This document shows positions 12,089-26,113 of a stretch of DNA of 26,113 nt, piece after piece. The translations under genes and the position numbers were made by a program. The notes under the pieces are model-generated. The model ran no database searches and was not told where the DNA came from. It saw nothing but the letters and a program-made list of their open reading frames with translations. Each line of letters starts with the position of its first letter. The stretch's first letter is position 1. The stretch comes from a virus. The stretch is taken from positions 1 to 26,113 of IMG/VR virus record IMGVR_UViG_3300006924_000141; one strand, 5' to 3'.

Positions 12089-12100
12089 ATACGCTATACT
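12072..12100 (+). promoter_or_regulatory. Consensus sigma70-type promoter upstream of a structured RNA region
   Basis: TTGACA (12072-12077), exactly 17 bases, TATACT (12095-12100). The expected start near 12106-12107 falls on the first base of the long-range helix described for the RNA candidate. The -35 overlaps the end of the preceding gene. This is the best -35 match in the window. Confidence 0.85.
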
Positions 12101-12106
12101 ATGAAC

Positions 12107-12303: not shown

Positions 12304-12316
12304 GGGAGAGAAGAAA

Positions 12317-12640: not shown

Positions 12641-12643
12641 GAA

Positions 12644-13281: not shown

Positions 13282-13568
13282 GTTCTAGCATCGAAATCAA
13301 AACAGACGGCTGCAAGTCTCTTTACCTTGATATAAATACCACAGGCGTAGAGTTTGAGGCTTGGAATCAAGATTATCCAGAAGCGGAACTTATTACGATG
13401 TGGTTTGATCTGAAAGATAAGGAAGATCGAAAGGCAATCAAGAATCTTATTTCACATCTCCAACATCAGTTGCAGGTTCACGAAACACCCCCTTATTCTA
13501 CTTGTCCTTCTTGTTCTTGGCTAAAAAGAGAGCGAGGTGTTGAAGCCTGTGAGGAGCATAGCAAATGA
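13278..13568 (+). CDS. Small hypothetical protein with a Cys pair
   Basis: A 96-aa product. The N-terminal two thirds look beta-rich then helical (CKSLYLDINTTGVEFEAW; KAIKNLISHLQHQLQVHE). The C-terminus has CPSCSW and later EACEEH, a possible incomplete zinc site (C-x2-C ... C ... H). I do not recognise it. It is coupled to both neighbours by ATGA overlaps. Confidence 0.6.
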   Translation: MSSSIEIKTDGCKSLYLDINTTGVEFEAWNQDYPEAELITMWFDLKDKEDRKAIKNLISHLQHQLQVHETPPYSTCPSCSWLKRERGVEACEEHSK

Positions 13569-13969
13569 TTGGAACAGCAAAGAGGCTTGTTGAATGTCGT
13601 TATTTCCGGTGGCTTCCGGGTATGCGAGACTTGGGTGGAAACTTCTATCTTGGTCAAAGGGCAAATGCACCAGAAGGTGTTCATATGTGGGCCGGTTTTG
13701 ATAGGGGAAGTTGGGAATGGAACGAAACCGAGTTTGGACTACCAGACCTTGAAGACCCCGCAACCCTTGGATGCGTTCTTGCTTTGGTTCGCAACGCTTG
13801 GAAAGACGACGGCATTGCGTGTGTGACGGGTTCTTACACCGCAGAGTCAGGTTACAGGTTTCGCATCGTTGGCGGAATGCACCAAGATACAAAGTTCTTT
13901 ATGATGAGCCAAAAGCATTACCTCTCAGAAGGTGAGGCACTTGCTGCTGCTTTGGAGTTAGCAGGATGA
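13565..13969 (+). CDS. Hypothetical protein, beta-rich
   Basis: A 134-aa product, Gly-, Trp- and Tyr-rich, for example GNFYLGQRANAPEGVHMWAG and GSWEWNETEFGLPDLEDP. It has a single helix containing TLGCVLALVRNAWKD and a C-terminal helix LSEGEALAAALELAG. The composition suggests a compact beta-sheet domain. The family is not recognised. A shorter overlapping frame at 13569 is a shadow. Both ends overlap neighbours by four bases. Confidence 0.6.
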   Translation: MIGTAKRLVECRYFRWLPGMRDLGGNFYLGQRANAPEGVHMWAGFDRGSWEWNETEFGLPDLEDPATLGCVLALVRNAWKDDGIACVTGSYTAESGYRFRIVGGMHQDTKFFMMSQKHYLSEGEALAAALELAG

Positions 13970-14160
13970 AAGAAAGTATTATTGTCCTTTCGGATGACGC
14001 TGTGATTATAGACGGTAGATTATTTACCGCCAACACCTATCCAAATAGTTGTCCAAAGTGTTATAGTGAGATATATTGGAGCAAGCAAGATGGCTTTTAC
14101 CCCAGACCCGGTTGCGTAAAATGTGACATATGGTTTGACAAAGTTTATTGTAAGCCGTGA
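13966..14160 (+). CDS. Small zinc-ribbon-like protein
   Basis: A 64-aa product with CPKCYSEIYW and, about 20 residues later, CVKCDIWFD, a C-x2-C...C-x2-C pattern that should bind one zinc ion. The N-terminus (MKESIIVLSDDAVIIDGR) is probably two beta strands. Phage zinc ribbons of this size are often regulators or inhibitors, but nothing here shows the partner. Confidence 0.65.
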   Translation: MKESIIVLSDDAVIIDGRLFTANTYPNSCPKCYSEIYWSKQDGFYPRPGCVKCDIWFDKVYCKP

Positions 14161-14168
14161 GGAAATAA

Positions 14169-14351
14169 ATGACTAACGAAGATTTTAACAAGAATATGAG
14201 CAGAATGTTCTTTCGTCTTGGAAATGCTTTCCGTGATGTAAGAGACAATATGATCGAAAACTTTGGAAGAGAAAACGATACATCAGAACTTCTCTTTCGC
14301 CTTGAAGAAGTTTGCGATATTATGATTGAGAATTATGGGGAGGAAAAATGA
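14169..14351 (+). CDS. Small hypothetical helical protein
   Basis: A 60-aa product with GAGGAAAT just ahead of the ATG. It is entirely helical in appearance (NKNMSRMFFRLGNAFRDVRD, then LLFRLEEVCDIMIENYGEEK). The motif DNMIENFG is echoed by DIMIENYG near the end, suggesting an internal duplication of a helix. The function is unknown. Confidence 0.6.
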   Translation: MTNEDFNKNMSRMFFRLGNAFRDVRDNMIENFGRENDTSELLFRLEEVCDIMIENYGEEK

Positions 14352-14638
14352 ATAACCCTTGTAACGAAATCTGTATTGGGAAGGTGGATGATGTGGTTGA
14401 GTGGTGGCAGATCAACTCCTACAATGCCGGTTACCACAGAGGACTAAACACAGAATACCATAATATTCCAATCAATATTCTTTTCACCAAGTGGATTGCT
14501 GATGTTCGCAGACCAGCATCAGAAGCACTTGATATTGTTGCCTTCGAGAAAGGTTACAACGACGGCATTGAAGATTACGAAGAGTCTATGAAAGGCGATA
14601 AAGACGTAGCAGCAACTACAGCAGGTTGGGAAGAGTAA
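14348..14638 (+). CDS. Small hypothetical protein
   Basis: A 96-aa product beginning MNNPCNEICIGKVDDVVEWW. It contains SYNAGYHRGLNTEYHN and, about 55 residues later, FEKGYNDGIEDYEE; the A-G-Y-x-x-G / K-G-Y-N-D-G pair looks like two related helix-loop units. It overlaps the previous gene by four bases and its TAA runs into the next ATG. The family is not recognised. Confidence 0.6.
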   Translation: MNNPCNEICIGKVDDVVEWWQINSYNAGYHRGLNTEYHNIPINILFTKWIADVRRPASEALDIVAFEKGYNDGIEDYEESMKGDKDVAATTAGWEE

Positions 14639-15096
14639 TGGATATTAGACTAGAAAACAACAAAGACACTTTTCGCGGAAGAGGCAAAACCATCGAGGAG
14701 TTGAAAGAACAACTTGGTGCTCTAAAGTCTATTATTCGCCAAACCTACAAGGCGATTGGCTGCTCTGACGATATTATCGAAGGAGAAGATTGGGGAGGTT
14801 TGCCTTCAAGGGTTGCTTGTCTCAAAGCGGCTGTTGATCTTGGAACCCATCAAGAACTGGATATTCTTCACGACCGTCCTCACAAGGAAGTAGGAAGGGG
14901 AAGAGCGGCAAGGGTCCATAGAGTTCCAACTGCTGATGAGATGGTCGCGGCTCAACAAATGACTGCACCAACAAGGCTGGAAATTGAATGGAGAAACATT
15001 CAAAAAGTGAACGAAGACACTACAAAATGGTATACCTGCGCTCATTGCGATGCGGGCTACCCAGATCAAGAATGTACTTGCAAGGAAGACAAATAA
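14638..15096 (+). CDS. Hypothetical protein with C-terminal Cys/His cluster
   Basis: A 152-aa product from ATG 14638 (TAATG overlap); the frame extends upstream to 14626 but that part lies in the previous gene. A helix with TIEELKEQLGALKSIIRQTY is followed by a basic linker (GRGRAARVHRVP). The C-terminus has YTCAHCDAGYPDQECTCKED, which offers C-x2-C and C-x-C ligands for a zinc site. It may be a small nucleic-acid- or protein-binding factor; the family is unknown. Confidence 0.6.
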   Translation: MDIRLENNKDTFRGRGKTIEELKEQLGALKSIIRQTYKAIGCSDDIIEGEDWGGLPSRVACLKAAVDLGTHQELDILHDRPHKEVGRGRAARVHRVPTADEMVAAQQMTAPTRLEIEWRNIQKVNEDTTKWYTCAHCDAGYPDQECTCKEDK

Positions 15097-15299
15097 TGTG
15101 GGAACTTTGGGAATGGAACGGCCATTACATCAAGGGCAAGAAACTAAAAAGGTCCAAGACAAAGAAAACCGTTTTTGATTATGCCGAGAAGAATCTTGAG
15201 TATGTAAAGATTGCAGAAGGCTTGCCCGGAGAATGGTATCTTGAAAACCGCATTGGGCTCGCAGTTGGAATGATTATTGACAATAGGAAGAAGAAATGA
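15096..15299 (+). CDS. Small hypothetical protein
   Basis: A 67-aa product starting in the TAATG overlap. It is Trp-rich at the start (MWELWEWNGHYIKGKKLKRS), with a basic run and a basic end (IIDNRKKK). An overlapping reading of the same frame from 14988 would lie inside the previous gene. It is not recognised. Confidence 0.6.
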   Translation: MWELWEWNGHYIKGKKLKRSKTKKTVFDYAEKNLEYVKIAEGLPGEWYLENRIGLAVGMIIDNRKKK

Positions 15300-15499
15300 A
15301 GAACACATTGAAAGCAGTAATTATGGAGCTAGAAGCAAAAGAAGCAAAGGCACAAGCAACCATTGAGCTTTATCTCAACAATGCAGTTGCCATTGCAGAC
15401 CACAGCGAAATCCTTGATGAGATCACCAAGTGGGCGAGCTTTGGTGCCGAAGCGCGAGACACGAGAGAGTATTTGCTATCAGAGTTTGGAGAGGACTGA
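15296..15499 (+). CDS. Small hypothetical helical protein
   Basis: A 67-aa product, almost fully helical and Ala/Glu/Lys-rich (LKAVIMELEAKEAKAQATIE). It closes the block of small genes. It is coupled upstream by ATGA and ends one base before the methyltransferase start, while its last codons contain the methyltransferase ribosome binding site (GGAGAGG). Confidence 0.6.
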   Translation: MKNTLKAVIMELEAKEAKAQATIELYLNNAVAIADHSEILDEITKWASFGAEARDTREYLLSEFGED

Positions 15500-15500
15500 A

Positions 15501-16238
15501 ATGGATAAGGGATACAGCTTGCATTTGGGCGATTGCCTAGAGATTATGGAAAGCATCGAGACAGATTCAGTAGATATGCTTCTCGTTGACCTCCCATATG
15601 GCACCACACGATGCCGTTGGGATCAGGTTATCCCTCTAGACAAGCTCTGGCCACACTACAACCGCATTGTAAAACATAATGGCGCTATGGTATTCACAGC
15701 CGCCCAGCCTTTCACAAGCGTCCTCGTAAGCTCTAACATTAAGAACTTTCGATACAATTGGGTGTGGGAGAAGTCTAAGGCTACCGGTTACCTAAACTCT
15801 AAGCGTATGCCACTTAAGGCTCACGAAGACATTTGTGTTTTCTATCGCAAGCTCCCAACATACAACCCACAGATGTGGCAGGGCACTCCATACAATAAGG
15901 GCCAAGCGTTGCGCGAGACAGATGTGTACGGAGCACAGACCAGCGTCCTCGTCAAGAACGACACCGGCCTTCGCTACCCAAGAACAGTGCAATACTTCAA
16001 GACTGCTGAGTCAGAGGGCGACTCGCAGCACCCAACGCAGAAGCCGCTATCGCTTATGGAGTATATGATCAAGACGTATACCAACGAAGGCGATGTTGTG
16101 CTTGACAATGCGATGGGGTATGGTACAACTGGTGTGGCAGCGCTTAACACAAACAGGAAGTTTATCGGTATCGAGCTAGACAAAGAGTGGTATGATCGTG
16201 CCGAACAACGGATCCAGAGTACCTTGACATCTACTTGA
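15501..16238 (+). CDS. DNA methyltransferase, N6-adenine or N4-cytosine type (beta-class)
   Basis: A 245-aa product from ATG 15501; GGAGAGG lies at 15488-15494. The catalytic motif IV is DLPYG (30-34), next to GTTRCRWD. The AdoMet-binding motif I is D202-NAMGYGTTG near the C-terminus, where family members usually have DPFxGSGTT. The order IV then I marks the beta class of N4/N6 methylases. A recognition segment lies between (about 90-175). HPTQKPLSLMEYMI is the conserved stretch ahead of motif I. No restriction enzyme gene is adjacent, so it is an orphan enzyme that probably protects phage DNA or marks it. DLPY rather than NPPY or SPPY does not settle the target base. Confidence 0.9.
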   Translation: MDKGYSLHLGDCLEIMESIETDSVDMLLVDLPYGTTRCRWDQVIPLDKLWPHYNRIVKHNGAMVFTAAQPFTSVLVSSNIKNFRYNWVWEKSKATGYLNSKRMPLKAHEDICVFYRKLPTYNPQMWQGTPYNKGQALRETDVYGAQTSVLVKNDTGLRYPRTVQYFKTAESEGDSQHPTQKPLSLMEYMIKTYTNEGDVVLDNAMGYGTTGVAALNTNRKFIGIELDKEWYDRAEQRIQSTLTST

Positions 16239-16267
16239 CATTTAAAACTCTCCTCCTGTGGTATACT
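16235..16267 (+). promoter_or_regulatory. Candidate extended -10 promoter ahead of uvsE
   Basis: TGG directly precedes TATACT (16262-16267). TTGACA occurs at 16235-16240, but the spacing is 21 bases, longer than the 16-18 preferred. A second TTGACAT lies 11 bases further upstream (16224). The extended -10 can compensate for a poorly placed -35; the two TTGACAT copies may instead be a binding site. Confidence 0.5.
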
Positions 16268-16289
16268 AAGAAAGTAAGGAGGAAAGAAA

Positions 16290-17219
16290 ATGCTCTCTGT
16301 AGAAAACATCGGCTATGCGTGTATTAATCTCGAACTCAACGAGCGACCAAAGAAGCACCGTGTCACGACCAATCGTGCTATGGTGCGTCGTACTTTTGAC
16401 AAGAAGGGCGTAGCTTACGCTTCTGATTTGGCATACCACAACGTTCAAGATCTCTACAAGATCCTTCAGTGGAACGAGGCCAACAATTTCAAGTTCTTCC
16501 GCTTGTCCTCGAATCTTTTTCCTTGGCATTCTCAGTACGACTGGGAAGAGATGCCTATGCACGACCGAATCGTCGAGTGGCTTCAAATCTGCGGCAACTA
16601 TGCCAAGCAGCACGGCCATCGCCTGACCACGCACCCCGGCCCATTCAACAAGTTGACCAGCGCTGACGAGCGTATCATCAACAACACAGTCCGAGATCTA
16701 GAGGCACACGGCTGGATGTTTGACCAGATGGGCCTTCCCCGCTCGCCATTTGCAAAGATCAACATTCACGTCGGCGCTACCTATGGTGACAAGCAGATGG
16801 CCTGCGACAACTTCTGCAGAAACTTCGAGCGCCTTTCTGATTCTGTCAAGTCGCGACTCACTGTAGAGAATGACGACAAGGCTAGCCTTTACTCTACCAG
16901 AGAGCTCTACGAGATGATCTACGAACGTATCGGTATCCCTATCGTTCACGACGTTCACCACCACAAGTTCTGCACGGGTGGTCTCTCACAGGAAGATGCT
17001 ATGCAGATGGCAGCATCCACTTGGGGCGATGTCCGCCCAGTAATCCACTACTCTCAGTCTCGTGCCATCGAACACAATGATCCGAAGATCAAACCACAAG
17101 CACACTCCGACTCCTACTGGGAGCCAGTTGAAACATTTGACATTGACGTGGATGTGATGCTTGAAGCTAAGCACAAAGAGAAAGCCGCATATGCAATGCG
17201 CGGAATGTTGTTCGGATAA
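16290..17219 (+). CDS. uvsE: UV damage endonuclease UvsE/UVDE
   Basis: A 309-aa TIM-barrel endonuclease that nicks DNA 5' of UV photoproducts and starts an excision repair route independent of UvrABC. AGGAGGAAA precedes ATG 16290. Family landmarks in order are N-terminal IGYACINLEL, NFKFFRLSSNLFPW, HPGPFNKL, KINIHVGATYGDK, LTVENDDK, IPIVHDVHHHKF, VIHYSQSR and QAHSDSYW. The conserved Asn, Glu, Asp and His residues that bind the metal cluster are visible in these segments. The length is close to bacterial UvsE proteins. It stands between the methyltransferase and the dut cluster with its own promoter candidate, as expected for a repair gene expressed separately. Confidence 0.93.
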   Translation: MLSVENIGYACINLELNERPKKHRVTTNRAMVRRTFDKKGVAYASDLAYHNVQDLYKILQWNEANNFKFFRLSSNLFPWHSQYDWEEMPMHDRIVEWLQICGNYAKQHGHRLTTHPGPFNKLTSADERIINNTVRDLEAHGWMFDQMGLPRSPFAKINIHVGATYGDKQMACDNFCRNFERLSDSVKSRLTVENDDKASLYSTRELYEMIYERIGIPIVHDVHHHKFCTGGLSQEDAMQMAASTWGDVRPVIHYSQSRAIEHNDPKIKPQAHSDSYWEPVETFDIDVDVMLEAKHKEKAAYAMRGMLFG

Positions 17220-17222
17220 TAG

Positions 17223-17251
17223 TTGACTGAAAGAAATTAATTTGGTATAAT
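17223..17251 (+). promoter_or_regulatory. Consensus sigma70-type promoter with extended -10
   Basis: TTGACT (17223-17228), 17 bases, TGG-TATAAT (17246-17251). It lies in the 58-base gap after uvsE and should drive the run from 17278 through at least the IMPDH-like gene. The leader is about 20 bases and contains AAGGAG. Confidence 0.85.
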
Positions 17252-17277
17252 AACTTTAGAAAGAAAAGGAGTGACTT

Positions 17278-17538
17278 ATGTCCCACAATGATGAAACACG
17301 CGCAAAGATGATTGAGTACATTCGAATCCTGAAGTCCATTGAGGATGAGATGGAACCTTACAAGGAGGCCAAGCGCGAGCTTCGCTCCGATTTCACCAGC
17401 AACGGCTGGTTGACCAAGGAAGATATTTCTCACATCACTCGCGCTTACCGTATGCTCAAAAAGAATGAGAGTATCGATGAACTCGTTGAAGCCTACGCAG
17501 CACTCACAAGTGTGCGAGGGGGCTCCGATGATGCTTGA
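17278..17538 (+). CDS. Hypothetical helical protein, first gene of the dut run
   Basis: An 86-aa product with AAGGAGTGA upstream. It is a helical, charged protein with MIEYIRILKSIEDEMEPYKE then AKRELRSDFTSNGWLTKEDI and a further helix RAYRMLKKNESIDELVEAYA. The helix-loop-helix layout with a central SNGW loop is reminiscent of GapR (DUF2312) DNA-binding proteins, but the typical basic residues are not conserved enough for me to assign it. It overlaps the dUTPase start by 11 bases. Confidence 0.65.
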   Translation: MSHNDETRAKMIEYIRILKSIEDEMEPYKEAKRELRSDFTSNGWLTKEDISHITRAYRMLKKNESIDELVEAYAALTSVRGGSDDA

Positions 17539-17983
17539 GTATGTAGCGCTACCACACTGCCAACACAAGCCAACCCGCGCTAATCCATCTGATGCGGGTC
17601 TGGATCTTAAGTTCAACCCAAAGGACGGGGCACCAGCTGTTCTTCGCTCCGGCGAGTCCGCTATTCTCGCAACTGGTCTTAAGTTTGGAATCCCGCACGG
17701 TTTTATGATGCAGATTATGAACCGTTCTGGCAATGCAGCCAAGCGCTCCCTCTTTGTGGGCGCTTGCGTTGTCGACGCAGGCTATGATGGCGAGGTGTTC
17801 GTAAACCTCCACAACTTCAGTAAGATGAGTCAGACCATCAACCCCGGCGACAAGATCGCACAGGGCGTTGTAATTCCTGTCTTGCCAGTGCGTTTTGTGG
17901 AGACTTCTGTTAGCGACCCTTACTGGTACCCAATTGCTATCTCTGATCGTGGCGATGGCGCTCTAGGGAGCACAGGACAATGA
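17528..17983 (+). CDS. dut: dUTPase (dUTP diphosphatase), trimeric type
   Basis: A 151-aa enzyme that hydrolyses dUTP to dUMP, keeping uracil out of DNA and supplying ThyX. ATG 17528 and ATG 17531 are both possible after GAGGGGG; the earlier frame to 17465 lies in the previous gene. All five family motifs are present: SDAGLDL (I), NRSGNAAK (II), CVVDAGYDGEV (III), GDKIAQGVV (IV) and the C-terminal RGDGALGSTGQ (V), which closes over the active site. Motif III carries the catalytic Asp and motif V ends at the very C-terminus as in other trimeric dUTPases. It overlaps the next gene by ATGA. Confidence 0.95.
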   Translation: MMLEYVALPHCQHKPTRANPSDAGLDLKFNPKDGAPAVLRSGESAILATGLKFGIPHGFMMQIMNRSGNAAKRSLFVGACVVDAGYDGEVFVNLHNFSKMSQTINPGDKIAQGVVIPVLPVRFVETSVSDPYWYPIAISDRGDGALGSTGQ

Positions 17984-18255
17984 ATCGTAAGCAGCGCAGA
18001 GCATTGAAGAAGGACAAGGGTTCTTCCGAACTTGATTCGCATATGGCTTTGTTTGGTAAGCTGCCAGATCAGTGCCTAGCTTGTGACAAGTCCTTCGACA
18101 AGAAGGATCGCGATATGGTTATGTCTTGGTCGGTGGTTGTACACCAGAGCACAGAAGAGGTTCGCCTCTACTGCCCAGACTGCTGGGACCGAGCCAACAG
18201 CATTGTAGCAGAGATGAAGGAACGTATTGAAGCAAGAATGGAAGGTGAAGAATGA
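17980..18255 (+). CDS. Conserved small phage protein with a zinc site
   Basis: A 91-aa protein with basic start MNRKQRRALKKDKG. LPDQCLACDKSFDKKDRDMV and VRLYCPDCWDRA provide C-x2-C and C-x2-C ligands for one zinc ion, and MVMSWSVVV lies between. I recognise this layout (MNRKQRRA... CxxC ... MSW.VVV... LYCPxCW) from many large phages, where the function is unknown. It is coupled by ATGA overlaps to dUTPase and glutaredoxin, so it is part of the nucleotide-metabolism transcript. Confidence 0.75.
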   Translation: MNRKQRRALKKDKGSSELDSHMALFGKLPDQCLACDKSFDKKDRDMVMSWSVVVHQSTEEVRLYCPDCWDRANSIVAEMKERIEARMEGEE

Positions 18256-18572
18256 GTTTTCAGCCAAGATTTAAAATGTACATCAAGCCTACTTGTCCAT
18301 TCTGTATTGAGGCACGCCGCATCATTGTAGAAGAGCTCCAGATGGGAGTAATGTCGGAAGACGTCACTGATGATAAGCTTCTCCGTGAGCGTCTAAAGCA
18401 AGAGACAGGTGTCAATACAGTGCCACTAATTTATTTTGGCGATCAGTTTATTGGCGGCTGCACCGATCTCAGGGCAGCTATCGATAGCGGAGAAATGGAA
18501 AAATACATTCTCAGAGAAGAGAATACTTACCTTAAAAATGAAATCAGCTTTTTGCGAAGGAGTATCGGATGA
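18252..18572 (+). CDS. grx: Glutaredoxin
   Basis: A 106-aa thiol-disulfide oxidoreductase. The active site is C15-P-F-C18 (PTCPFCIEA). NTVPLIYFGDQFIGGCTDL follows, with the cis-proline and the GG-C-(D/T)-DL glutathione-binding end typical of glutaredoxins. Residues about 80-106 form an extra charged helix (EKYILREENTYLKNEISFLR) not found in minimal glutaredoxins. It could supply electrons to the class II reductase, whose C-terminal Cys-x4-Cys pair appears at the start of the window (inference). Many phages pair such a gene with their nrd genes. Confidence 0.9.
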   Translation: MSFQPRFKMYIKPTCPFCIEARRIIVEELQMGVMSEDVTDDKLLRERLKQETGVNTVPLIYFGDQFIGGCTDLRAAIDSGEMEKYILREENTYLKNEISFLRRSIG

Positions 18573-18724
18573 GTAAGAGAAACAGCACATCGGCTTGGAA
18601 GCCTAAGAAGCAGTGCAAGAAGACCTCAATCGGTCGTGGTCGTGGAACTCGTTACAAGGCGAAGGCATCTAACGGCACAGTGCCGAAGGGCTACCGTAAG
18701 CGTTACCGAGGGCAGGGCCGATAA
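18569..18724 (+). CDS. Small basic conserved phage protein (51 aa)
   Basis: A short gene from ATG 18569 (overlapping the glutaredoxin stop, AAGGAG upstream) to TAA 18722-18724. Its product is very basic: MSKRNSTSAWKPKKQCKKTS, then IGRGRGTRYKAK, and the end YRKRYRGQGR. It is recognisable as a small Lys/Arg-rich protein found in many large phages, with K-K-Q-C-K-K-T-S and a final R-Y-R-G-Q-G-R, function unknown. The charge suggests RNA or DNA binding. The next gene starts immediately after its stop, and its ribosome binding site (GAGGGCAGGG) is inside this gene. Confidence 0.75.
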   Translation: MSKRNSTSAWKPKKQCKKTSIGRGRGTRYKAKASNGTVPKGYRKRYRGQGR

Positions 18725-19780
18725 ATGAACTTTTTCAGTAAGGAGCCAGCACTATCATTTGACGATGTGCTCTTGCTCCCACAACATTCAGATATTGTTT
18801 CTCGCTCAGAGGTCTCTATGGCATACGAGCTAGAGAACATTGAGGGCCACATCTTTAGGCTACCAGTGGTCTCTAGCCCTATGGACACAGTTACCGAGTT
18901 CGAGACAGCCAAGCAGATGTTTGAGTCTGGCGGCTTTGGTATCGTTCATCGTTACCTCTCAGAGATAGAGCAGAAGAATATCTCTCTAAAATGTGCAGAG
19001 CAGGGCATCATTGCAGGCTTTGCAGTGGGAACTGGCTCACAGGATCGTGAGCGTGCAAGGTTCCTTATTGAAGATGGCCTCGCGGAAATCATTTGTGTTG
19101 ATGTCGCACACGGCCATCATATTGCGGCTGCCGAGATGGTATCTTTCCTATCAAAGAACTGGGGCGACCAGATTCATATTATGGCAGGGAATGTAGCAAC
19201 TCTAGAAGGGTTTAACTTCTTGGCAGACGCAGGGGCACACTCTGTTCGCGTTGGTATTGGCGGTGGCTCTATCTGCTCCACAAGGATTCAGACAGGCCAC
19301 GGCTGCCCAACATTGCAGAGCGTAATTGATTGTGCAAAGTCAGACCGTGACGCACTTTTGATTGCAGATGGTGGTATCCGTACAGCTGGCGACATTGTAA
19401 AGGCTCTAGGCGCAGGCGCAGACCTAGTAATGCTTGGTTCAATGTTGGCAGGTACCGACTGCAGCCCCGGCGACATTATTGAGCACGATAATGGCGAAAA
19501 GTGTATGGAGTATCGAGGTATGGCTTCACGCCGAGCACAGACAGCTTGGCGCGGCAAAGTTGCTTCCAAAGAGGGAGTTGCAAGCCATATCCCATACAAG
19601 GGCGAGCTAGAAGCGGTCATTGCAGATATTCAGGATAGACTACGTTCTGGGCTATCTTACAGCGGAGCCCGTAGCATTGAGCAGTTCCAGAATACTGCAC
19701 TATTTATTATGCAAACTAGCGCAGGCTGTAGAGAGAGTAATACTCACATTTCCAGCCTTGCAAAGGGTGTACGGGATTAA
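18725..19780 (+). CDS. IMP dehydrogenase/GMP reductase family protein without CBS domains
   Basis: A 351-aa (beta/alpha)8-barrel enzyme of purine interconversion. Features in order: [42 protein letters not shown], the substrate loop [15 protein letters not shown] with catalytic C184, [20 protein letters not shown], then [10 protein letters not shown] (262-270). No CBS pair interrupts the barrel, as in GMP reductase. However, GMP reductases have an essential Glu in Y-G-M-S-S-E-S, and here it is Arg (GMAS-R269). YRGM-x-S and [11 protein letters not shown] resemble IMP dehydrogenase, whose mobile flap seems shortened and lacks the Arg-Tyr pair. The activity (GMP or IMP supply) is therefore uncertain, but the family is not. 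Confidence 0.85.
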
Positions 19781-20100
19781 TGTCGAAGATTGGTACTTCA
19801 AGCAAGAAAGTGGTCTTCTATGAGTCGGACAAGAAATACGCTGACTTTCGTATTGCTTTAAAGACTGATGGCTTTACTCAAGCCAACTTTATGAGGACTA
19901 TCATCCACGCCTACATCAGGCGTGACAAAGACTTGATGCCGTTTATCGAAAAGATGCTCAAGAAAGAGGTAGATGTACCTAGGGCTTGGGTAAGACAGTC
20001 TAGAATGAAGAGAGAATCGGCTGAAGAGAAAATGAAGAACTTGGGCCTTTCAGATACCGAGATCGATAACATTTTCGACCTTATTGCTGATCAAGAATAA
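19780..20100 (+). CDS. Conserved phage protein, possible ribbon-helix-helix-like
   Basis: A 106-aa product starting in the TAATG overlap. SSKKVVFYESDKKYADFRIA and then LKTDGFTQANFMRTIIHAYI form a strand followed by helices. The order (beta-strand, G-x-T-x-x-x-F-x-R-x-I-I helix) resembles ribbon-helix-helix DNA-binding proteins. The C-terminus (KMKNLGLSDTEIDNIFDLIA) is acidic. I recall similar proteins in large phages, but I cannot name a function. It ends the nucleotide-metabolism run. Confidence 0.65.
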   Translation: MSKIGTSSKKVVFYESDKKYADFRIALKTDGFTQANFMRTIIHAYIRRDKDLMPFIEKMLKKEVDVPRAWVRQSRMKRESAEEKMKNLGLSDTEIDNIFDLIADQE

Positions 20101-20125
20101 AAAAAGTCATTATACACTAAAAAGA

Positions 20126-20134
20126 ACTATTTAT
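20126..20134 (+). promoter_or_regulatory. ACTATTTAT motif, candidate phage-specific promoter element (copy 2)
   Basis: GAACTATTTATTATG lies 34 bases before the ATG of the acidic scaffold-like gene, in a 68-base gap. The neighbouring TTATACAC (20110-20117) could be a -10-like element but lacks a matching -35. The core matches the copies at 811, 21472 and 25974. Confidence 0.45.
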
Positions 20135-20168
20135 TATGAAAACCGAGAAGGTTTAGGAGAAATTCGCA

Positions 20169-20795
20169 ATGTCTAAGAAGAATCTTTTGAATGAATCACA
20201 GATTCGTAAGTTTATGAAGTACGCTAATATCAGCTCCCTAGCAGACACCTTCATCAGCGAAGGCTACGATATGTCCGAAGAGGAAGTAGTAGCTGAAGAA
20301 GAGATGGGTGCCGCGATGGCCGAGATGGATATGGCTGATGGCGATATGCCAGCTATGGACGATATGGATCTCGATGCTGACGTAGAGGCTGCTGACGCTG
20401 CCGACGCTGGCGTTATGGATAGCGAGGACGAGGTTGCTGACTTTGTTGGTGAGCTAATCGACGTTATCGAGAAGGCCACTGGTGTTAAGCTCTCAATGGA
20501 GCGCGCAGACGACGCTGACGATATGGCTGATGAGGACGCTGCCGAAGATGCCGAAGAGGCTATCGAAGATCTCGCTGACGAGATGGCAGACGAGGCTGAA
20601 GCTGAAGCTGCTGCTGATGACGCCGAAGAGGCTGCTGACGAAGACGAGGACGAGGCCGCAGAGGTCGAGCTCGACGAGACCGTCACCCGCATCGCCGAGA
20701 GCGTAATGGCCCGCATCAACGACGCCAAGGCCAAGAGAGCATCCGTTGAGCAGATTGCAGAGAACATCGTCAATCGTATTCTTAACAACGACTGA
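20169..20795 (+). CDS. Very acidic protein, candidate scaffold or prohead core protein
   Basis: A 208-aa product with AGGAGAAAT upstream. The first 30 residues (MSKKNLLNESQIRKFMKYAN) are ordered-looking and basic. Residues about 38-175 are almost only Asp, Glu, Ala and Met (for example AADDAEEAADEDEDEAAEVE), giving a strong negative charge and probably disorder. The last 30 residues form a normal helix (VTRIAESVMARINDAK, VEQIAENIVNRIL). Charged middle parts and helical ends are typical of phage scaffolding or core proteins, and a ClpP-like protease gene follows, as in many capsid modules. The N-E-S-x-I-R-x-F-M start recalls proteins of large marine phages. It has its own terminator. Confidence 0.6.
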   Translation: MSKKNLLNESQIRKFMKYANISSLADTFISEGYDMSEEEVVAEEEMGAAMAEMDMADGDMPAMDDMDLDADVEAADAADAGVMDSEDEVADFVGELIDVIEKATGVKLSMERADDADDMADEDAAEDAEEAIEDLADEMADEAEAEAAADDAEEAADEDEDEAAEVELDETVTRIAESVMARINDAKAKRASVEQIAENIVNRILNND

Positions 20796-20806
20796 TTTTT
20801 AAAACA

Positions 20807-20835
20807 TTGCACTCTAGAAGGCACTGTGTTATTAT
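20807..20835 (+). promoter_or_regulatory. Candidate promoter with -10 in the terminator loop
   Basis: TTGCAC (20807-20812), a 17-base spacer, TATTAT (20830-20835). The -10 lies in the loop of the terminator hairpin and the predicted start (about 20842) is in its right arm. Transcripts started here would lack the left arm and so escape termination, giving clpP an independent promoter. Confidence 0.4.
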
Positions 20836-20856
20836 TATAGCACAGTGCCTTTTTTA
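20818..20856 (+). terminator. Strong intrinsic terminator after the acidic gene
   Basis: AAGGCACTGTG (20818-20828) and CACAGTGCCTT (20841-20851) pair perfectly (11 bp) around a 12-base loop, followed by TTTTTT (20850-20855). This is the most convincing terminator in the window. Confidence 0.9.
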
Positions 20857-20876
20857 TTGGGACTAGGGAGCTGACT

Positions 20877-21470
20877 ATGGACGAAGAGACAGTAACAGTT
20901 GAGACTACACCAGAGGAGCTAGCAAAGCTTCTGCAGCCAGAAGAAGAGGAGCTAACCCCTATCCTTCTTCTTGGCGAAATTAACGATGATAGCACCACTG
21001 GCGTGCTTTCTTCTTTGATTATCAATCGAGGTATCGCAGCGAAGTCGGAAAAGGAATTGGAGTTGGAATTCTTTATCAACTCTGAGGGTGGCTCTGCTTA
21101 TGAGATGTTTGCAATTGTTGATACTATGAAGTATGCTCAAGAAGTCTTTCCTATCAAGACTGTTGGTCTAGGAAAGATTATGTCTGCTGGCGTTCTCCTG
21201 TTAGCAGCCGGAACGCCGGGGCGCCGATTCATTGGTCGGTCTTCCCGTGTTATGGTTCACAACGTTCTCTCTGGACAGCAGGGATCCCTAGCCACACTCC
21301 AGAATGAATTCAACGAAGTGAAGAAGATTCAGGAGATGTACATTGAGAAGTTGGCAGAGTTCTCCAATCTTAACGTAAAGCAGATCAAGAGAATCTTAGC
21401 CAAGAACCAGAACATTTATATCTCAGCTGAAAAGGCTATTGAGTACGGGATTGCAGATCACATTCTGTGA
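20877..21470 (+). CDS. ClpP-like serine protease with altered catalytic Asp
   Basis: A 197-aa protein of the ClpP/crotonase fold. AGGGAG precedes the ATG. The N-terminal 30 residues are acidic (VETTPEELAKLLQPEEEE). EFFINSEGGSAYEMFAIVDT corresponds to the first part of the barrel. The catalytic Ser is S103 in KIMSAGVLL (ClpP: AASMGAFLL) and the His is H128 in VMVHN (MIHQ). The third residue, Asp in the D-R-F-L-S of E. coli ClpP, aligns with N179 in NQNIYISAEKAIEYGIADH. Phage proteases of this type cleave prohead proteins; the acidic scaffold-like gene upstream makes that plausible. A true ClpP partner role with host ClpX is also possible. Confidence 0.8.
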   Translation: MDEETVTVETTPEELAKLLQPEEEELTPILLLGEINDDSTTGVLSSLIINRGIAAKSEKELELEFFINSEGGSAYEMFAIVDTMKYAQEVFPIKTVGLGKIMSAGVLLLAAGTPGRRFIGRSSRVMVHNVLSGQQGSLATLQNEFNEVKKIQEMYIEKLAEFSNLNVKQIKRILAKNQNIYISAEKAIEYGIADHIL

Positions 21471-21471
21471 G

Positions 21472-21480
21472 ACTATTTAT
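21472..21480 (+). promoter_or_regulatory. ACTATTTAT motif, candidate phage-specific promoter element (copy 3)
   Basis: GACTATTTATATT begins one base after the ClpP-like stop and ends 16 bases before ATG 21497. The gap is only 26 bases and includes the ribosome binding site, so a promoter here would leave a very short leader. Confidence 0.45.
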
Positions 21481-21496
21481 ATTGAGGTGATTTACT

Positions 21497-22957
21497 ATGA
21501 GTGATTTTGATTGGGGCAAGGCCATTGACCAGAAGTTCAATGCAAGCCGTAACAATTTGATCGAGACCCTAGGTCGTATTATTGATAACGTTCTCCTAGA
21601 AAGAGCAGACAATGTGCCCGGTGGCGAGTCTCCTTTCAATGATGAGGACTTTTCTATCCCTCTTCCAAAGCTTCGCATCTCTGAGGCTTGGGGCAAGATG
21701 GGAACCGAAGACCGTGCAATTATTGAGAACTACTCAAAGAACATTCCCGGTGGAACCTTTGAGCAGAAGATTGAATCACTAAATGCAATTCTTACTGAAG
21801 GTGTTGCAAGTGGGAATATCTCCCAGATTATTTCTACTATGGTTATCTGCGAGATCCTTTCTTCTATTCTCCGTGACTTCACAGAGTCAGCAGGTGGGTT
21901 TATCTTCGAGGGCTTCTTGGCAGGTCTCTTTGGCGGCAAGTCAATCCAGATTTACACCCCGGAAGACATTGAAGGAATGGACGCATCAGGCAAGCCTATT
22001 ACAGATGTTATCTTGGGCGACAAGCACTATTCTTTGAAGCTTCTTGGGCCAACTACTGGTGTCAAGGGATCCTTCCAGAATATGGTTAACCACTTTAAGG
22101 CTGTCGACCACATTGTATATCTTGATGCTCGTCGTATCAATAAGGATCAGGGCCTAGAGTTCCTAGAGTTCGAAATCACATTGGAGAACTTTGTCGACGT
22201 ATTTGTTACCCCCGTGCTTAAGCAGGTTACTGCTGGTACTGAGAAGGGCAAGCTAATTCGCGACATCGAGAAGGCAACCGACTTCCAGAGCGCACTTAAG
22301 CAATTGGTTGACGCTGGCAAACCAATTAAGACTATCGCATTTGACAAGGTTCCTCGCGAGCTTGGTCTTTCAATTAAGCGCCTCGACTACTCCCCAGCGA
22401 TTGAGGAGAAGCGTATCTCAGGCGCAGCTATGGACGAGGCTATTACAGCGATCCTAGAAGCAGACCCAGAGGTGCTACAACAGTACGCTCCATACGGTAT
22501 CGCATATGCAGATACTAAGTTTGAGGGCACCAAGGCCGAGAAGCTTTTCGGTTCTTACGGTAATGTTGAAAAGTATGCACGTCTTATGGACTCTGGCGAC
22601 AAGCAGGCTGCTCTAGAACATCTTTCTACTTTGCCCGGATTCACCGAGCAGCAGCAGTTTGAGTTCACCAGACAGCAGGCGGACAACATTGCAGGCGCAC
22701 GCTCTGTAGGTACACTTATGATTGGCGACAGCTATATGAAGGCAGCTTGGTCTAGCTATGCTGATTCACTTTCAAGAACTATCGGCCCAGTCTATCAGGA
22801 GCTAAAGCAGTTCACTGATGACCTTAGCCGTTACGTCCTAGGTGCTGGTGAAGGTAATGAGACAGACCGTAAGCAGTATGCTATGGATGCCGTCAATGAC
22901 GCAAAGCGTCTATCAGCGGCAACAGAGAACGCTGTTAAACAGATGGAAGAAAAATAA
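21497..22957 (+). CDS. Conserved large phage protein, possible PD-(D/E)XK-like segment
   Basis: A 486-aa product with GAGGTGA upstream. I do not know its function. Residues about 138-195 read FIFEGFLAGLFGG, then ITDVILGDKHYSLKLLGP and VKGSFQNMVNHF. An E...D-V-x7-(S)-L-K pattern like this is what PD-(D/E)XK nucleases show (acidic helix residue, Asp, then S-x-K after a strand). I recall similar FExFLAxLxGG segments in marine phage proteins. The rest is helical, with a long C-terminal part (EQQQFEFTRQQADNIAGARS; FTDDLSRYVLGAGEG). It could be a structural protein instead; the position between the ClpP-like gene and groEL allows both. Confidence 0.6.
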   Translation: MSDFDWGKAIDQKFNASRNNLIETLGRIIDNVLLERADNVPGGESPFNDEDFSIPLPKLRISEAWGKMGTEDRAIIENYSKNIPGGTFEQKIESLNAILTEGVASGNISQIISTMVICEILSSILRDFTESAGGFIFEGFLAGLFGGKSIQIYTPEDIEGMDASGKPITDVILGDKHYSLKLLGPTTGVKGSFQNMVNHFKAVDHIVYLDARRINKDQGLEFLEFEITLENFVDVFVTPVLKQVTAGTEKGKLIRDIEKATDFQSALKQLVDAGKPIKTIAFDKVPRELGLSIKRLDYSPAIEEKRISGAAMDEAITAILEADPEVLQQYAPYGIAYADTKFEGTKAEKLFGSYGNVEKYARLMDSGDKQAALEHLSTLPGFTEQQQFEFTRQQADNIAGARSVGTLMIGDSYMKAAWSSYADSLSRTIGPVYQELKQFTDDLSRYVLGAGEGNETDRKQYAMDAVNDAKRLSAATENAVKQMEEK

Positions 22958-22961
22958 AATA

Positions 22962-22990
22962 TTGACTCCTTGACTCTCTTGCATTATAAT
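22962..22990 (+). promoter_or_regulatory. Consensus sigma70-type promoter upstream of the groEL leader
   Basis: TTGACT (22962-22967), exactly 17 bases, TATAAT (22985-22990). A second TTGACT at 22970 is too close to act as the -35. The expected start is near 22997, about 20 bases before a terminator-like hairpin. Confidence 0.85.
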
Positions 22991-23016
22991 GAATAATGTA
23001 AGGGAGGCCATCGAAG

Positions 23017-23056
23017 ACCTCTCTGGAGATTATCTCCCGAGAGGTTTTTCTTTTTT
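23017..23056 (+). terminator. Leader hairpin with U-run between the promoter and groEL; attenuator or terminator
   Basis: ACCTCTC (23017-23023) pairs with GAGAGGT (23039-23045). After one mismatch, GGAGA (23025-23029) pairs with TCTCC (23033-23037) around loop TTA. TTTTTCTTTTTT follows. This is a strong intrinsic terminator lying downstream of the promoter, so transcripts must pass it to reach groEL. Upstream GAGG (23004-23007) could pair with CCTC (23018-23021) and compete with the stem, which is the layout of an attenuator. Confidence 0.8.
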
Positions 23057-23098
23057 AACCTCCAAGTCTAAAAACAACAATAACTTCAAGGAGTTGAA

Positions 23099-24682
23099 AT
23101 GACTAACAAGATGGTATACGCACACGACGATGAACTACAGGCCAAGATCGTTTCTGGCGTCAATCATTTGGCAGACTACGTAGCATCTACACTTGGGCCT
23201 CGTGGTCGCAATGTTATTATTCACCGTGACGGGAAAGATCCTATTATTACCAAGGACGGCGTTACAGTAAGTGAGCACGTTCACTTGATCGATCCTTTCG
23301 AGAACGCAGCAGTACACGTAATCAAGCAAGCTAGCCGCAAGTCTAACTCAGAGGCTGGCGATGGCACCACAACTGCTACCGTTCTTTCCCGTGCAATCCT
23401 TGTCGAGGCTTTCCGGCACATCACTGCAGGCGCGAGCCCAATCGAGATCAAGCGCGGTATTGAAGTTGCAGTCACTGATATTGTGGCAGCACTCAAAGAC
23501 ATTGCAGAGCCAATCTCCTCAGAAGAGAGCATTGAGCACATTGCAAGCATTTCAGCTAACAATGATCGCACTATCGGTCGCCTTGTTGCAAAGGCAGTCC
23601 TAGCAGCCGGTAAGGACGGCAGCCTTATTATTGAAGAGGCTCGCTCAGTCGACACTACCCTTGACCTTATCGAGGGCTTCCGATTCGATTCTGGCTATGC
23701 AGCATCAGCATTTATCAACGATGAGCGTCGAGGCGCTGTTGTTTATGAGAAGCCATTTATTCTTGTAATCGACGATAAGATCACCGAGGTACAGCAGATC
23801 CTTCCAGTCCTAGAGCCAGTAGCACGCGAGGGCCGACCTTTGGTTATTGTTGCGTCTGAGCTAGAAGGACAAGCACTCGCAGCACTTATTATGAACACAA
23901 TGCGTGGTTCTATGAAGGTTGCGGCTGTCAAGGCTCCACGCTATGGCCACGAGCGCCGCAGTATTATGCAGGACCTTTGTGTCGCAACAGGCGCGAAGTT
24001 CTTTTCTAAGGCCAACCAAGAGGGCCTAGACAAGTTCCAGCTTGTTGACCTCGGTCAGGCTGACAAGGTAGAGATTCTAAAGAACGGAACTACTTTCATC
24101 GGTGGCCACGGCGACTGGGCTCTAACCGAGCGTCGCATTGACTCACTCAAGGTTGAGCTTGAGCAGACTGATAACCTTAAGGAATGTGAAACAATTCAGG
24201 AGCGTATCACACGACTTGCATCTGGCGTTTCAGTAATTAAGGTAGGCGCGCCTACAGAAGTAGAAATGATTGAAAAGAAGCATCGCATTGAAGACGCTGT
24301 AGAGGCCGTAAAGGCCGCTATGGACGAGGGCATTGTTCCGGGTGGTGGTACCCCTCTTCTTCGTGCAACTAACCTCCTAGAGGCCCGTGAGCTCCCACAG
24401 GACCAAGCTCTGGGCTACAGCGCCGTACTCAAGGCTTGTGCTGCTCCAATTCGCCAGATGGCAAACAACGCTGGCACTTCACCAGATATTGTTTTGAAGA
24501 CAGTGCAAGATCTTCTAGTAGAGAACGGCTGGGGTTGGAACTTCGCTACAGCAGAACCGGGAGACCTTCTAGAGCTTGGTGTTGTTGATCCTGTCAAGGT
24601 TACACGTTGCGCCCTACAGAACGCAGCATCAGCAGCAGGAACTCTTATCACAACTGGCCACGCCATTATGGAGGTCAAGTGA
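23099..24682 (+). CDS. groEL: GroEL-type chaperonin
   Basis: A 527-aa class I chaperonin (E. coli 548); CAAGGAG precedes the ATG. It folds proteins in an ATP-driven double ring together with a GroES cap. The equatorial domain has TLGPRGRNVII, GDGTTTATVL (87-96) and the closing GIVPGGGTPLL. The hydrolysis Asp is D399 in IEDAVEAVKAAMDEG. The apical region includes YAASAFINDERRGAVVYEKP and MKVAAVKAPRYGHERRSIMQ. The protein ends ITTGHAIMEVK and lacks the Gly-Gly-Met tail of bacterial GroEL. It is complete and the active residues are intact. A GroES-like gene is at 1658. Phage chaperonins are known for a few large phages and are thought to serve capsid proteins. Confidence 0.97.
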   Translation: MTNKMVYAHDDELQAKIVSGVNHLADYVASTLGPRGRNVIIHRDGKDPIITKDGVTVSEHVHLIDPFENAAVHVIKQASRKSNSEAGDGTTTATVLSRAILVEAFRHITAGASPIEIKRGIEVAVTDIVAALKDIAEPISSEESIEHIASISANNDRTIGRLVAKAVLAAGKDGSLIIEEARSVDTTLDLIEGFRFDSGYAASAFINDERRGAVVYEKPFILVIDDKITEVQQILPVLEPVAREGRPLVIVASELEGQALAALIMNTMRGSMKVAAVKAPRYGHERRSIMQDLCVATGAKFFSKANQEGLDKFQLVDLGQADKVEILKNGTTFIGGHGDWALTERRIDSLKVELEQTDNLKECETIQERITRLASGVSVIKVGAPTEVEMIEKKHRIEDAVEAVKAAMDEGIVPGGGTPLLRATNLLEARELPQDQALGYSAVLKACAAPIRQMANNAGTSPDIVLKTVQDLLVENGWGWNFATAEPGDLLELGVVDPVKVTRCALQNAASAAGTLITTGHAIMEVK

Positions 24683-24966
24683 GTCGTTTCGAAATTAAGT
24701 TCTCTGTAGACGAGGACAACCTATTCACAGAGATCTTGAACATCTGTGATTCACGCTGGGCTACAGGCGAAGAAAGCATTCAAGAGTTGCAGAGTCTTAT
24801 CGGAACTTCTCTTGAAGCAGAGCATCCAGCCGAAGCTCTTCAACATCTACATAATCTTCGTGCAACTTTGTTCGACCTCGATGCCCTTTGTGAAGATGTT
24901 GCCGGCATTTTGACCGGCTACGTAGAGCACAAGGAGAATCGGGGGGTGCCAGATGGAGAAGGGTGA
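24679..24966 (+). CDS. Hypothetical protein overlapping groEL
   Basis: A 95-aa product. I chose GTG 24679 because GGAGG (24670-24674) lies just upstream, although only four bases away; the frame goes back to 24607 inside groEL. It begins (M)SRFEIKFSVDEDNLFTEI and continues helical and acidic (LHNLRATLFDLDALCEDVAG). The start (one strand, then D-E-x-x-L helix) is simple. No family is recognised. It is translationally coupled to groEL. Confidence 0.55.
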   Translation: MSRFEIKFSVDEDNLFTEILNICDSRWATGEESIQELQSLIGTSLEAEHPAEALQHLHNLRATLFDLDALCEDVAGILTGYVEHKENRGVPDGEG

Positions 24967-25183
24967 TCTAGTTTACATTCCTTCAAATACGCCTCTACGT
25001 CAGTATGACGACTCTGGTGTATTTATTACCAAGGAGATCCAGCTAGACAAGCCAACTGTCGGTATCTTCAAGCGAAGAAATAACGAACACTTCTTACCAG
25101 AACAATCAGAGATCTGGCTTGGAGAGACAGGTGGCCAATACTGGTGGGTATCTGAGCAGAATATTTATAAGCAGAACGCATAG
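24953..25183 (+). CDS. Small SH3/KOW-like protein
   Basis: A 76-aa product from ATG 24953, with GGGGGGTG about five bases upstream. MEKGDLVYIPSNTPLRQYDD, TVGIFKRRNNEH and GQYWWVSEQNIYK follow the small beta-barrel plan (GD-x-V ... G-(I/V) ... W). It resembles the MKVGD proteins at 10391, 10818 and 11284 in plan, but its sequence differs more. The function is unknown. Confidence 0.65.
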   Translation: MEKGDLVYIPSNTPLRQYDDSGVFITKEIQLDKPTVGIFKRRNNEHFLPEQSEIWLGETGGQYWWVSEQNIYKQNA

Positions 25184-25191
25184 GAGATAAA

Positions 25192-25476
25192 ATGTTTGAT
25201 CGTAATATGGCTAAGTTTGTAGAGGTTTGTGAAGGCGGATATGACCGTGAAGAGAAGTCACTTCGTGAAGTCCTAATCAACCCCAACTATGTTGCAGCAG
25301 TTGTTCCTTGTACACACACCGAGACACAACTTCAAGAAGGCCGCCTTCCAGAAGGACTAAACCCAGCACAGAAGTTCAGTAGAATCATTCTTGCCGATGG
25401 CCGCACCCAGCACGTAGTTGTTGGCGACGTTGCAGCTGTAGAGCTCCGGTTGCGCCTGCGGTTGTTGCGAGGGTGA
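25192..25476 (+). CDS. Conserved small phage protein, FlbD-like layout
   Basis: A 94-aa product; TAGGAG (25181-25186) precedes ATG 25192. It reads MAKFVEVCEGG, then LREVLINPNYVAAVVP and SRIILADGRTQHVVVGDVAA. The order (strand, I-N-P-x-x-V-x-x-V, strand, D-G-R, strand with V..D/E) is that of FlbD-like small beta proteins, which many phages carry with unknown role. The C-terminus (VELRLRLRLLRG) is unusual and Leu/Arg repetitive. Probably a cofactor or ligand-binding fold; not certain. Confidence 0.65.
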   Translation: MFDRNMAKFVEVCEGGYDREEKSLREVLINPNYVAAVVPCTHTETQLQEGRLPEGLNPAQKFSRIILADGRTQHVVVGDVAAVELRLRLRLLRG

Positions 25477-25477
25477 T

Positions 25478-25621
25478 ATGGACGAGGAACTAATGTTCGA
25501 AACCTTCTTGACTATGAAGGACAGAGAACTAGATGAACTTTTTGAAATTATTGCAGAATCATTTGACAATCCAGAGGATGTTCTGCTATTCTTGATGTCA
25601 GTAAGAATGGGAGTTGCGTGA
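25478..25621 (+). CDS. Short hypothetical protein (47 aa)
   Basis: ATG 25478 follows GAGGGTGAT with the previous stop inside it; the frame ends TGA at 25619-25621, overlapping the next ATG. The product MDEELMFETFLTMKDREL then continues acidic and helical to FLMSVRMGVA. A good ribosome binding site and tight coupling on both sides support a real gene. The function is unknown. Confidence 0.6.
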   Translation: MDEELMFETFLTMKDRELDELFEIIAESFDNPEDVLLFLMSVRMGVA

Positions 25622-25968
25622 TGGAACAGAGAATTACTAACAAGCCTTGGGGACACGAAGTCCTGTGGGCACATACTAAAGACTATGTAGGAAAGATCCT
25701 ATTCATTAAAGATGGTTGCCGCCTTTCTCGTCAATACCACGAGCGCAAGGAAGAGACCATTATTGTTCTTGAGGGAACACTTCGACTTGAGGTAGGCCCT
25801 GCAGGCGCTGGAGTAATCCACCTAGAGCCCGGACAGTCTTTTCATATCGAGCCTTTGATGACACATCGCTTCTGTGCGGACAACGGAGACGTCCGGCTTG
25901 CAGAGGTCTCTACGCCAGAACTAGAAGATGTTGTAAGATTGGAAGACGATTGGGGCAGATCCTCATAG
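25621..25968 (+). CDS. Cupin protein, phosphomannose isomerase-like
   Basis: A 115-aa single-domain cupin from ATG 25621; a GTG at 25618 is also in frame. NKPWGHEVLWAHT, GKILFIKDGCRLSRQYHERK and EETIIVLEGTLRLEV form the first cupin motif (G(X)5HXH(X)3,4E(X)6G-like: QYHERKEETIIVLEG). PGQSFHIEPLMTHRFCA is the second (PxG...H). The residues that bind the metal (His, Glu, His) are present. This is the C-terminal, isomerase-like half of ManC/type II phosphomannose isomerases. It could act on sugar phosphates for glycosylation or be a small binding protein. Phages with sugar-modifying genes often carry such cupins. Confidence 0.8.
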   Translation: MEQRITNKPWGHEVLWAHTKDYVGKILFIKDGCRLSRQYHERKEETIIVLEGTLRLEVGPAGAGVIHLEPGQSFHIEPLMTHRFCADNGDVRLAEVSTPELEDVVRLEDDWGRSS

Positions 25969-25973
25969 AGCAA

Positions 25974-25982
25974 ACTATTTAT
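25974..25982 (+). promoter_or_regulatory. ACTATTTAT motif, candidate phage-specific promoter element (copy 4)
   Basis: CAAACTATTTATACTGTA begins just after the cupin stop and ends 21 bases before ATG 26004. AGGAG follows at 25990. The neighbouring bases (CAAACTATTTAT) match copy 1 best. Confidence 0.45.
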
Positions 25983-26003
25983 ACTGTATAGGAGATTTTC
26001 ATT

Positions 26004-26113
26004 ATGACTCGGAACCTCAGTGACGCAAAGTGGCGTCGTTTTGTTATTGCAGAATCAATCCGCAGCCTTATCACAGAGGGCCTAGGTGACATCGGCTTGG
26101 CAGACCAAGAGCA
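26004..26113 (+). CDS. Start of an unidentified gene (runs off the window)
   Basis: Only 36 codons are visible, from ATG 26004 (AGGAG at 25990-25994): MTRNLSDAKWRRFVIAESIR, then SLITEGLGDIGLADQE. The N-terminal pattern (a basic first helix, then an E-S/E-G helix end) recalls the starts of the proteins at 20169 and 9071. This may be a structural gene, but too little is present to classify it. Confidence 0.6.
   Translation, partial: MTRNLSDAKWRRFVIAESIRSLITEGLGDIGLADQE

Follow-up and report, generated by a model that had tools for sequence, protein, structure and literature searches.

A terminator between the promoter and groEL of a virus record may discriminate between RNAs by where they began

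Why would a promoter positioned to express groEL be followed, before groEL is reached, by a strong intrinsic terminator? We examined this question in a 26,113-base virus record, analyzed over its whole length and hereafter called the window. Its gene products include a DNA polymerase, a thymidylate synthase, an IMP-dehydrogenase-like protein, a head maturation protease and GroEL. The original prediction for this DNA had proposed that groEL is controlled by attenuation, that a short RNA of about 60 bases arises separately from the promoter, or that the promoter is a relic. Its identification of groEL itself is borne out by the match listed below. From 5′ to 3′, the locus contains:

21473-21480, plus strand: CTATTTAT, candidate phage late promoter of gene X, suggested by motif enrichment upstream of genes
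21497-22957, plus strand: gene X (486 aa), with homologues directly 5′ of groEL in many relatives; the origin of the read-through RNA in the proposal developed here
22962-22990, plus strand: groEL promoter of sigma70 type, TTGACT-17-TATAAT, 11/12 match; predicted RNA start about 22997
22970-22997, plus strand: second, overlapping promoter-like site, TTGACT-16-AATAAT, 10/12 match; predicted RNA start about 23004
23013-23056, plus strand: predicted intrinsic terminator, with its hairpin at 23013-23049 and T-run at 23045-23056
23088-23093, plus strand: Shine-Dalgarno sequence AAGGAG, judged from the sequence to be in present use by groEL, 5 nt 5′ of the ATG
23099-24682, plus strand: groEL (527 aa; PHROG 5725, E 1.2e-141; Pfam PF00118)

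For comparison we assembled 170 distinct leaders from groEL searches of environmental viral contigs. In the tree, the nearest groEL relative is L164 (72% identity, branch support 100), followed by L002/L004 and then L003/L015. Even the closest groEL matches among annotated phages fall below 60% identity, and none of these phages matched the groEL leader region at the DNA level. The best relatives in the gene X search reached 51-58% identity; the gene X product is conserved, has no Pfam or PHROG match, and its gene adjoins that of the head maturation protease. One contig, L085, is 99.9% identical to window positions 11725-20769 and ends at 20769, before the groEL leader; its start lies beyond the window's upstream edge.

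The promoter can be judged from its counterparts. A sigma70-type promoter (at least 9/12) ending no more than 45 nt from the start codon was present in 147 of the 170 leaders, at promoter-to-start-codon distances of 9-37 nt in the first 129; as a null, shuffled upstream regions give a promoter of at least 10/12 within 45 nt in about 3% of cases. Because so many groEL leaders have one there, we take the window's promoter to be real. It is most likely the ancestral groEL promoter, and its conserved function, as read from these leaders, would be groEL expression. The consensus promoter originally placed at 22962-22990 therefore holds up, both in its match and in the conservation of its homologous position, and the idea of a relic is contradicted by an intact element that is near-universal at the homologous site. 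This element is among the two best promoter matches in 13000-26113, a region that has 31 promoter-like sites (shuffles: 15.0 +/- 4.4), and it contains TTGACTC twice, 8 bp apart. Like all RNA starts given here, the start at about 22997 is predicted, in this case from the usual spacing of 6-7 nt after the -10. What sets the window apart is its unusual spacing, with the -10 ending 108 nt 5′ of the groEL start codon. Between the hairpin and groEL (23057-23098) there is no promoter of at least 10/12, and the rest of the leader after the terminator has no special fold (z 0.2). Two leaders, L002 and L174, count as lacking a promoter because a GIY-YIG-like endonuclease gene is inserted in groEL. This homing endonuclease gene (L174:153-836, L002:1816-2580) lies between an early groEL fragment and a second, full groEL start; in this arrangement the endonuclease gene and the second groEL start each have the CTATTTAT motif ahead.

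The terminator consists of a G+C core, CCUCUC/GAGAGG (23018-23023/23039-23044), inside which a U-C mismatch is followed by GGAGA/UCUCC closing a UUA loop, and of outer A-U and G-U pairs that lengthen the hairpin to its full extent. Its minimum free energy of -23.9 kcal/mol (z -2.8) was reached by 1 of 200 shuffles, and the hairpin ranks among the two strongest terminator-like hairpins in the 26 kb; on one and the same measure it scores -19.1, against -13.5 for the best in 20 shuffled windows. Directly 3′ of it lies TTTTTCTTTTTT; neither strand of the window has another T-run of this kind. A stock terminator scan missed the hairpin because of the U-C mismatch, but the locus combines what defines an intrinsic terminator, a stable G+C-containing hairpin (about -20 to -24 kcal/mol) and an immediate T-run. 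The hairpin with its U-run, and the order of promoter, terminator and groEL, are thus as originally described and far beyond shuffled sequence.

Among the 170 leaders, a convincing terminator between promoter and groEL is found in the window alone; L092 has one weak match (-7.6 kcal/mol), 5′ of a promoterless distant groEL homologue. Since no other groEL leader has a terminator in between, we place its gain in the window's lineage, and on these sequences it is most likely a lineage-specific addition rather than conserved groEL regulation. The simplest history, we infer, is that a segment of about 85 nt, carrying the terminator and the new Shine-Dalgarno sequence AAGGAG, entered between an old Shine-Dalgarno sequence and groEL. 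The same promoter-hairpin order before groEL, which the original prediction would have sought in related phages, occurs in none of them; similar overlaps precede a different gene.

Three further elements, one of them unreported by the original prediction (P1), bear on how such a leader could function:

22974-23006, plus strand: hairpin P1, 14 bp with a 5-nt loop, over the -10; complete only in RNA from upstream
23000-23007, plus strand: AAGGGAGG, in the 3′ arm of P1 and a strand of the alternative pairing; placed after the -10 like the Shine-Dalgarno sequences of relatives
23001-23024, plus strand: competing, antiterminator-like hairpin AGGGAGG/CCUCUCU in promoter-started RNA, -9.7 kcal/mol

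P1 pairs 22974-22987 with 22993-23006 and covers the end of the -10, and RNA started at the predicted 22997 lacks its 5′ arm. It is unusually stable (z about -4, to -4.3; 0-2 of 1000 shuffles as stable), and only two hairpins on the plus strand of the window have at least 14 uninterrupted pairs and a loop of 3-8 nt: P1 and a terminator at 20816-20853. Its 3′ arm includes AAGGGAGG, about 91 nt from the groEL ATG, which by its position is probably the old groEL Shine-Dalgarno sequence. In L164 a hairpin begins at the same position relative to the promoter. Compared with the window, seven of its nine outer pairs are changed on both sides, one on one side and one not at all, and all nine still pair despite the eight changes; this covariation rests on two sequences, the window and L164. 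The 3′ arm in L164 is the groEL Shine-Dalgarno region adjoining the ATG, and read-through RNA would therefore hide the groEL ribosome-binding site there. Across 110 relatives there is no general excess of hairpins over groEL promoters (mean z 0.2), apart from single cases such as L063, L164 and L046. In the leaders of L063 and L046, as in L164, a strong hairpin over the -10 engages the ribosome-binding site or its vicinity, but only in read-through RNA. Elsewhere in the window, a 13-bp hairpin at 1416-1449 (z -5.2) contains in its loop TTGTCA, the -35 of a 10/12 promoter whose -10 lies just 3′ of the hairpin, with a gene next; it makes a third case of a strong hairpin at a promoter-like site.

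The AGGGAGG strand has two alternative partners, the 5′ arm of P1, present in read-through RNA only, and CCUCUCU in the 5′ arm of the terminator. The original prediction had noted a GAGG/CCTC alternative pairing; this exists, but its extent is actually 7 bp (23001-23007 with 23018-23024). We followed the competition by computing partition functions of the growing RNA. In promoter-started RNA, the competing hairpin predominates until the RNA end reaches 23043. With the end at 23042, the outer terminator stem has a probability of 0.014 in promoter-started versus 0.98 in read-through RNA; at 23043 the values are 0.35-0.37 versus 0.95-1.0, and from 23044 onward the stem is equally formed, at more than 93%, in both. 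The gain from closing the stem between 23042 and 23044 is 3.2 kcal/mol for the promoter RNA versus 6.3 kcal/mol for the read-through RNA. About 4% of shuffled leaders compete with or delay the terminator as much as the real one does, so the alternative pairing may have arisen by chance, the old Shine-Dalgarno sequence being rich in purines and the terminator arm in pyrimidines.

The originally proposed attenuation is therefore upheld in part. The leader has the anatomy, including a pairing that excludes the terminator hairpin and competes with it, but taken by itself the 7-bp pairing falls far short of the terminator in stability (-9.7 versus about -23 kcal/mol), and compensatory conservation in relatives is absent, terminator and alternative pairing occurring in the window alone among the 170 leaders. 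From the modeled folding, attenuation appears plausible only jointly with P1, which would make termination depend on where the RNA started.

Whether RNA from upstream would be late RNA turns on the promoters of the neighboring genes. The motif [AC]TATTTA occurs no more than 75 nt upstream of 46/61 acidic genes (at 20169 in the window), 31/132 X genes and 9/169 groEL genes; sigma70 promoters precede 138/169 groEL genes versus 1/61 acidic genes. In the window, CTATTTAT has six copies on the plus strand, at sites that include 812, 20127, 21473 and 25975, and none on the minus strand, and CTATTTA is enriched about 9-fold upstream of genes. From this distribution, CTATTTAT / [AC]TATTTA is probably the late promoter of these phages.

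Our tentative preference is for a terminator that senses the origin of the RNA, stopping late read-through while RNA from groEL's own promoter partly escapes. The sigma70 promoter of groEL would sit inside hairpin P1, with the acquired terminator further 3′. Late gene X mRNA would carry both arms of P1, and P1 would sequester AGGGAGG; with P1 formed, the 5′ arm of the terminator would be free, and read-through transcription would stop at the T-run. RNA from about 22997 would instead pair AGGGAGG with CCUCUCU, delaying the terminator until the polymerase nears the end of the T-run, and a share of polymerases would read into groEL. The net effect would be a groEL gene closed to late read-through and partly open to its own promoter, damped by the terminator. 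This reading infers a terminator active in the host, a termination efficiency set by where the RNA began, and late transcription as the source of the upstream RNA. Because the terminator wins in both RNAs once base 23044 is out, escape would rest on kinetics: the hairpin must close while the polymerase is in the T-run, and a delay of 2-3 bases could therefore release some polymerases. The full three-hairpin leader is known from one sequence.

Simpler forms of such a device may exist after the acidic gene of relatives, where a terminator and a sigma70 promoter are both present in 61 of 105 distinct stretches. In 46 of the 105, the terminator hairpin overlaps the promoter, which places the predicted RNA start inside or beyond the 5′ arm; the remainder of the 61 have the terminator 5′ of the -10 (14 cases) or the whole hairpin downstream (one, L171). 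In these overlapping cases, RNA begun at the promoter is missing some or all of the 5′ arm, so that the full terminator cannot form: the full hairpins have energies of -11.7 to -23.5 kcal/mol, versus 0 to -11 for RNA from the predicted start, which usually loses the base of the stem adjoining the T-run. The stems vary by subgroup (AACCACT, AAAGACTGTG, AAGGCTGTG, ATAACCATCG and others) at a constant register, in loci that include L006, L008, L014, L151, L164 and about 40 others. In relatives the element precedes a gene for a small protein (about 133 aa, hydrophobic N-terminus), which the window does not have. A similar element lies ahead of the window's protease gene (20807-20856), with TATTAT in the terminator loop and a promoter that is weak, 8/12 in all. 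In 1.25 Mb of locus sequence, strong terminators occur 20-110 nt 3′ of a promoter several times more often than the 6.6 cases expected if the two were independent, an excess inflated by shared ancestry and by the intergenic clustering of both.

Promoters over terminators are thus common here, and the groEL leader resembles an extended form of the device. More guardedly still than for groEL itself, we suggest that a large environmental tailed-phage clade uses one-way terminators, hairpins over or beside sigma70 promoters, which would stop polymerase from the upstream late gene and let pass polymerase that starts at that promoter. Most would be simple overlaps, like the 46 after the acidic gene. 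The groEL leader would be a more intricate case: its hairpin across the promoter would govern a distinct terminator further downstream, with one strand common to both. In open-access text we found no published description of such promoter-overlapping terminators.

A serious possibility, to which we give slightly less credence, is that an ordinary terminator was gained after gene X as insulation against late transcription, that its position 3′ of the promoter is an accident of insertion, and that the alternative pairing has no role and groEL expression is simply reduced by a fixed factor. This would account for a terminator confined to one lineage and fully favored in both RNAs from base 23044, and for an alternative pairing within reach of shuffled sequence; neighboring late genes, too, are insulated by other terminators. 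However, P1 and the compensatory changes in the L164 hairpin are signs of selection on where the RNA begins, and a terminator 5′ of the promoter, an order that exists after the acidic gene in some relatives, would insulate at no cost to groEL. We hold the origin-sensing terminator only moderately above plain insulation, because the delay is a kinetic argument and some 4% of shuffles match it.

Antitermination by a phage or host protein, acting at the promoter or on the leader RNA to let polymerase through, is improbable. The order of strong promoter, early terminator and gene is that of lambda PR′-tR′ with Q (PMC6606751) and of the alpB promoter with AlpA (PMC7969949), in which a terminator likewise lies shortly 3′ of a strong promoter. 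The TTGACTC repeat could be read in the same sense, but its first copy coincides with the -35. A lambda Q-type, -10-like pause element, as defined in PMC6606751, is absent from 22997-23012, the predicted first transcribed bases if RNA starts at about 22997 (AATAAT ends at about +1). No Q-like protein was found among the 20 window proteins searched, in a record that is perhaps partial.

We consider it just as improbable that the promoter serves to make a distinct functional small RNA, about 50-60 nt long and terminated at the hairpin, while groEL is expressed otherwise. Against the fitting distance from promoter to T-run and the lack of a visible groEL promoter in 23057-23098 stands the direct feeding of groEL by this promoter in the great majority of leaders (147/170). 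No relative with the same RNA was found, and no Rfam 15 family matches at its threshold in the window: matches in 22900-23130 are far below threshold, and the weak his/phe-leader matches, also well under it, include his-leader ones on both strands. The separate RNA of about 60 bases that had been predicted would rather be a by-product, given that the promoter's conserved function appears to be groEL expression.

Very unlikely is a reading of P1 as a palindromic DNA operator where a repressor would bind over the -10, with the terminator a separate matter: Watson-Crick complementarity in DNA extends to 12 of the 14 arm positions and the -10 is covered, but both mismatches are G-U pairs in RNA, the L164 arms differ in sequence in the same register, unlike a shared operator, and there is no CIRCE element. 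A leader peptide was rejected, as the 37-codon ORF (ATG 22989 to TGA 23102) spans the terminator, begins 5′ of the predicted RNA start and lacks a Shine-Dalgarno sequence, and no start codon lies at a suitable distance from AAGGGAGG.

How does this leader compare with known systems? It shares with CIRCE/HrcA control of bacterial groE an inverted repeat between promoter and groEL, but in the window a T-run follows the repeat, and the CIRCE sequence TTAGCACTC-N9-GAGTGCTAA gave 0 matches with up to three mismatches. Attenuators such as the trp and his leaders and riboswitches have the same succession of strong promoter, leader, alternative pairing, intrinsic terminator and gene; unlike them, the window has no leader peptide ORF with a ribosome-binding site and no known ligand fold, and the proposed signal is the RNA start point. 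The closest parallel is T4 gene e, where an inhibitory structure present only in upstream-initiated RNA has been proven at the level of translation (PMC3014915); the same start-inside-hairpin logic has been proven for I-TevI (PMC2988022). In gene e, as in soc, I-TevI and segB, the promoter lies within the hairpin sequence and only the upstream RNA carries the fold. A 5′ arm before and a 3′ arm after the predicted RNA start are found both in P1 and in L164, whereas a 3′ arm that hides the ribosome-binding site is found in L164 and not in the window, which uses AAGGAG at 23088; the L164 groEL leader thus looks like the gene e arrangement. The window differs from gene e, whose early RNA is blocked in translation and late RNA freed: the blocked RNA would be the late one, the promoter is of sigma70 type, and the proposed effect is on transcription termination.

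If the preferred reading is true, the groEL leader would be a protein-free terminator that discriminates between polymerases by their start site, through nothing other than the layout of promoter and hairpins, and would be the counterpart of the T4 gene e trick at the level of transcription. Such a terminator would offer a testable part for insulated expression, and it would explain how late and sigma70-driven genes are kept separate in these compact phage genomes.
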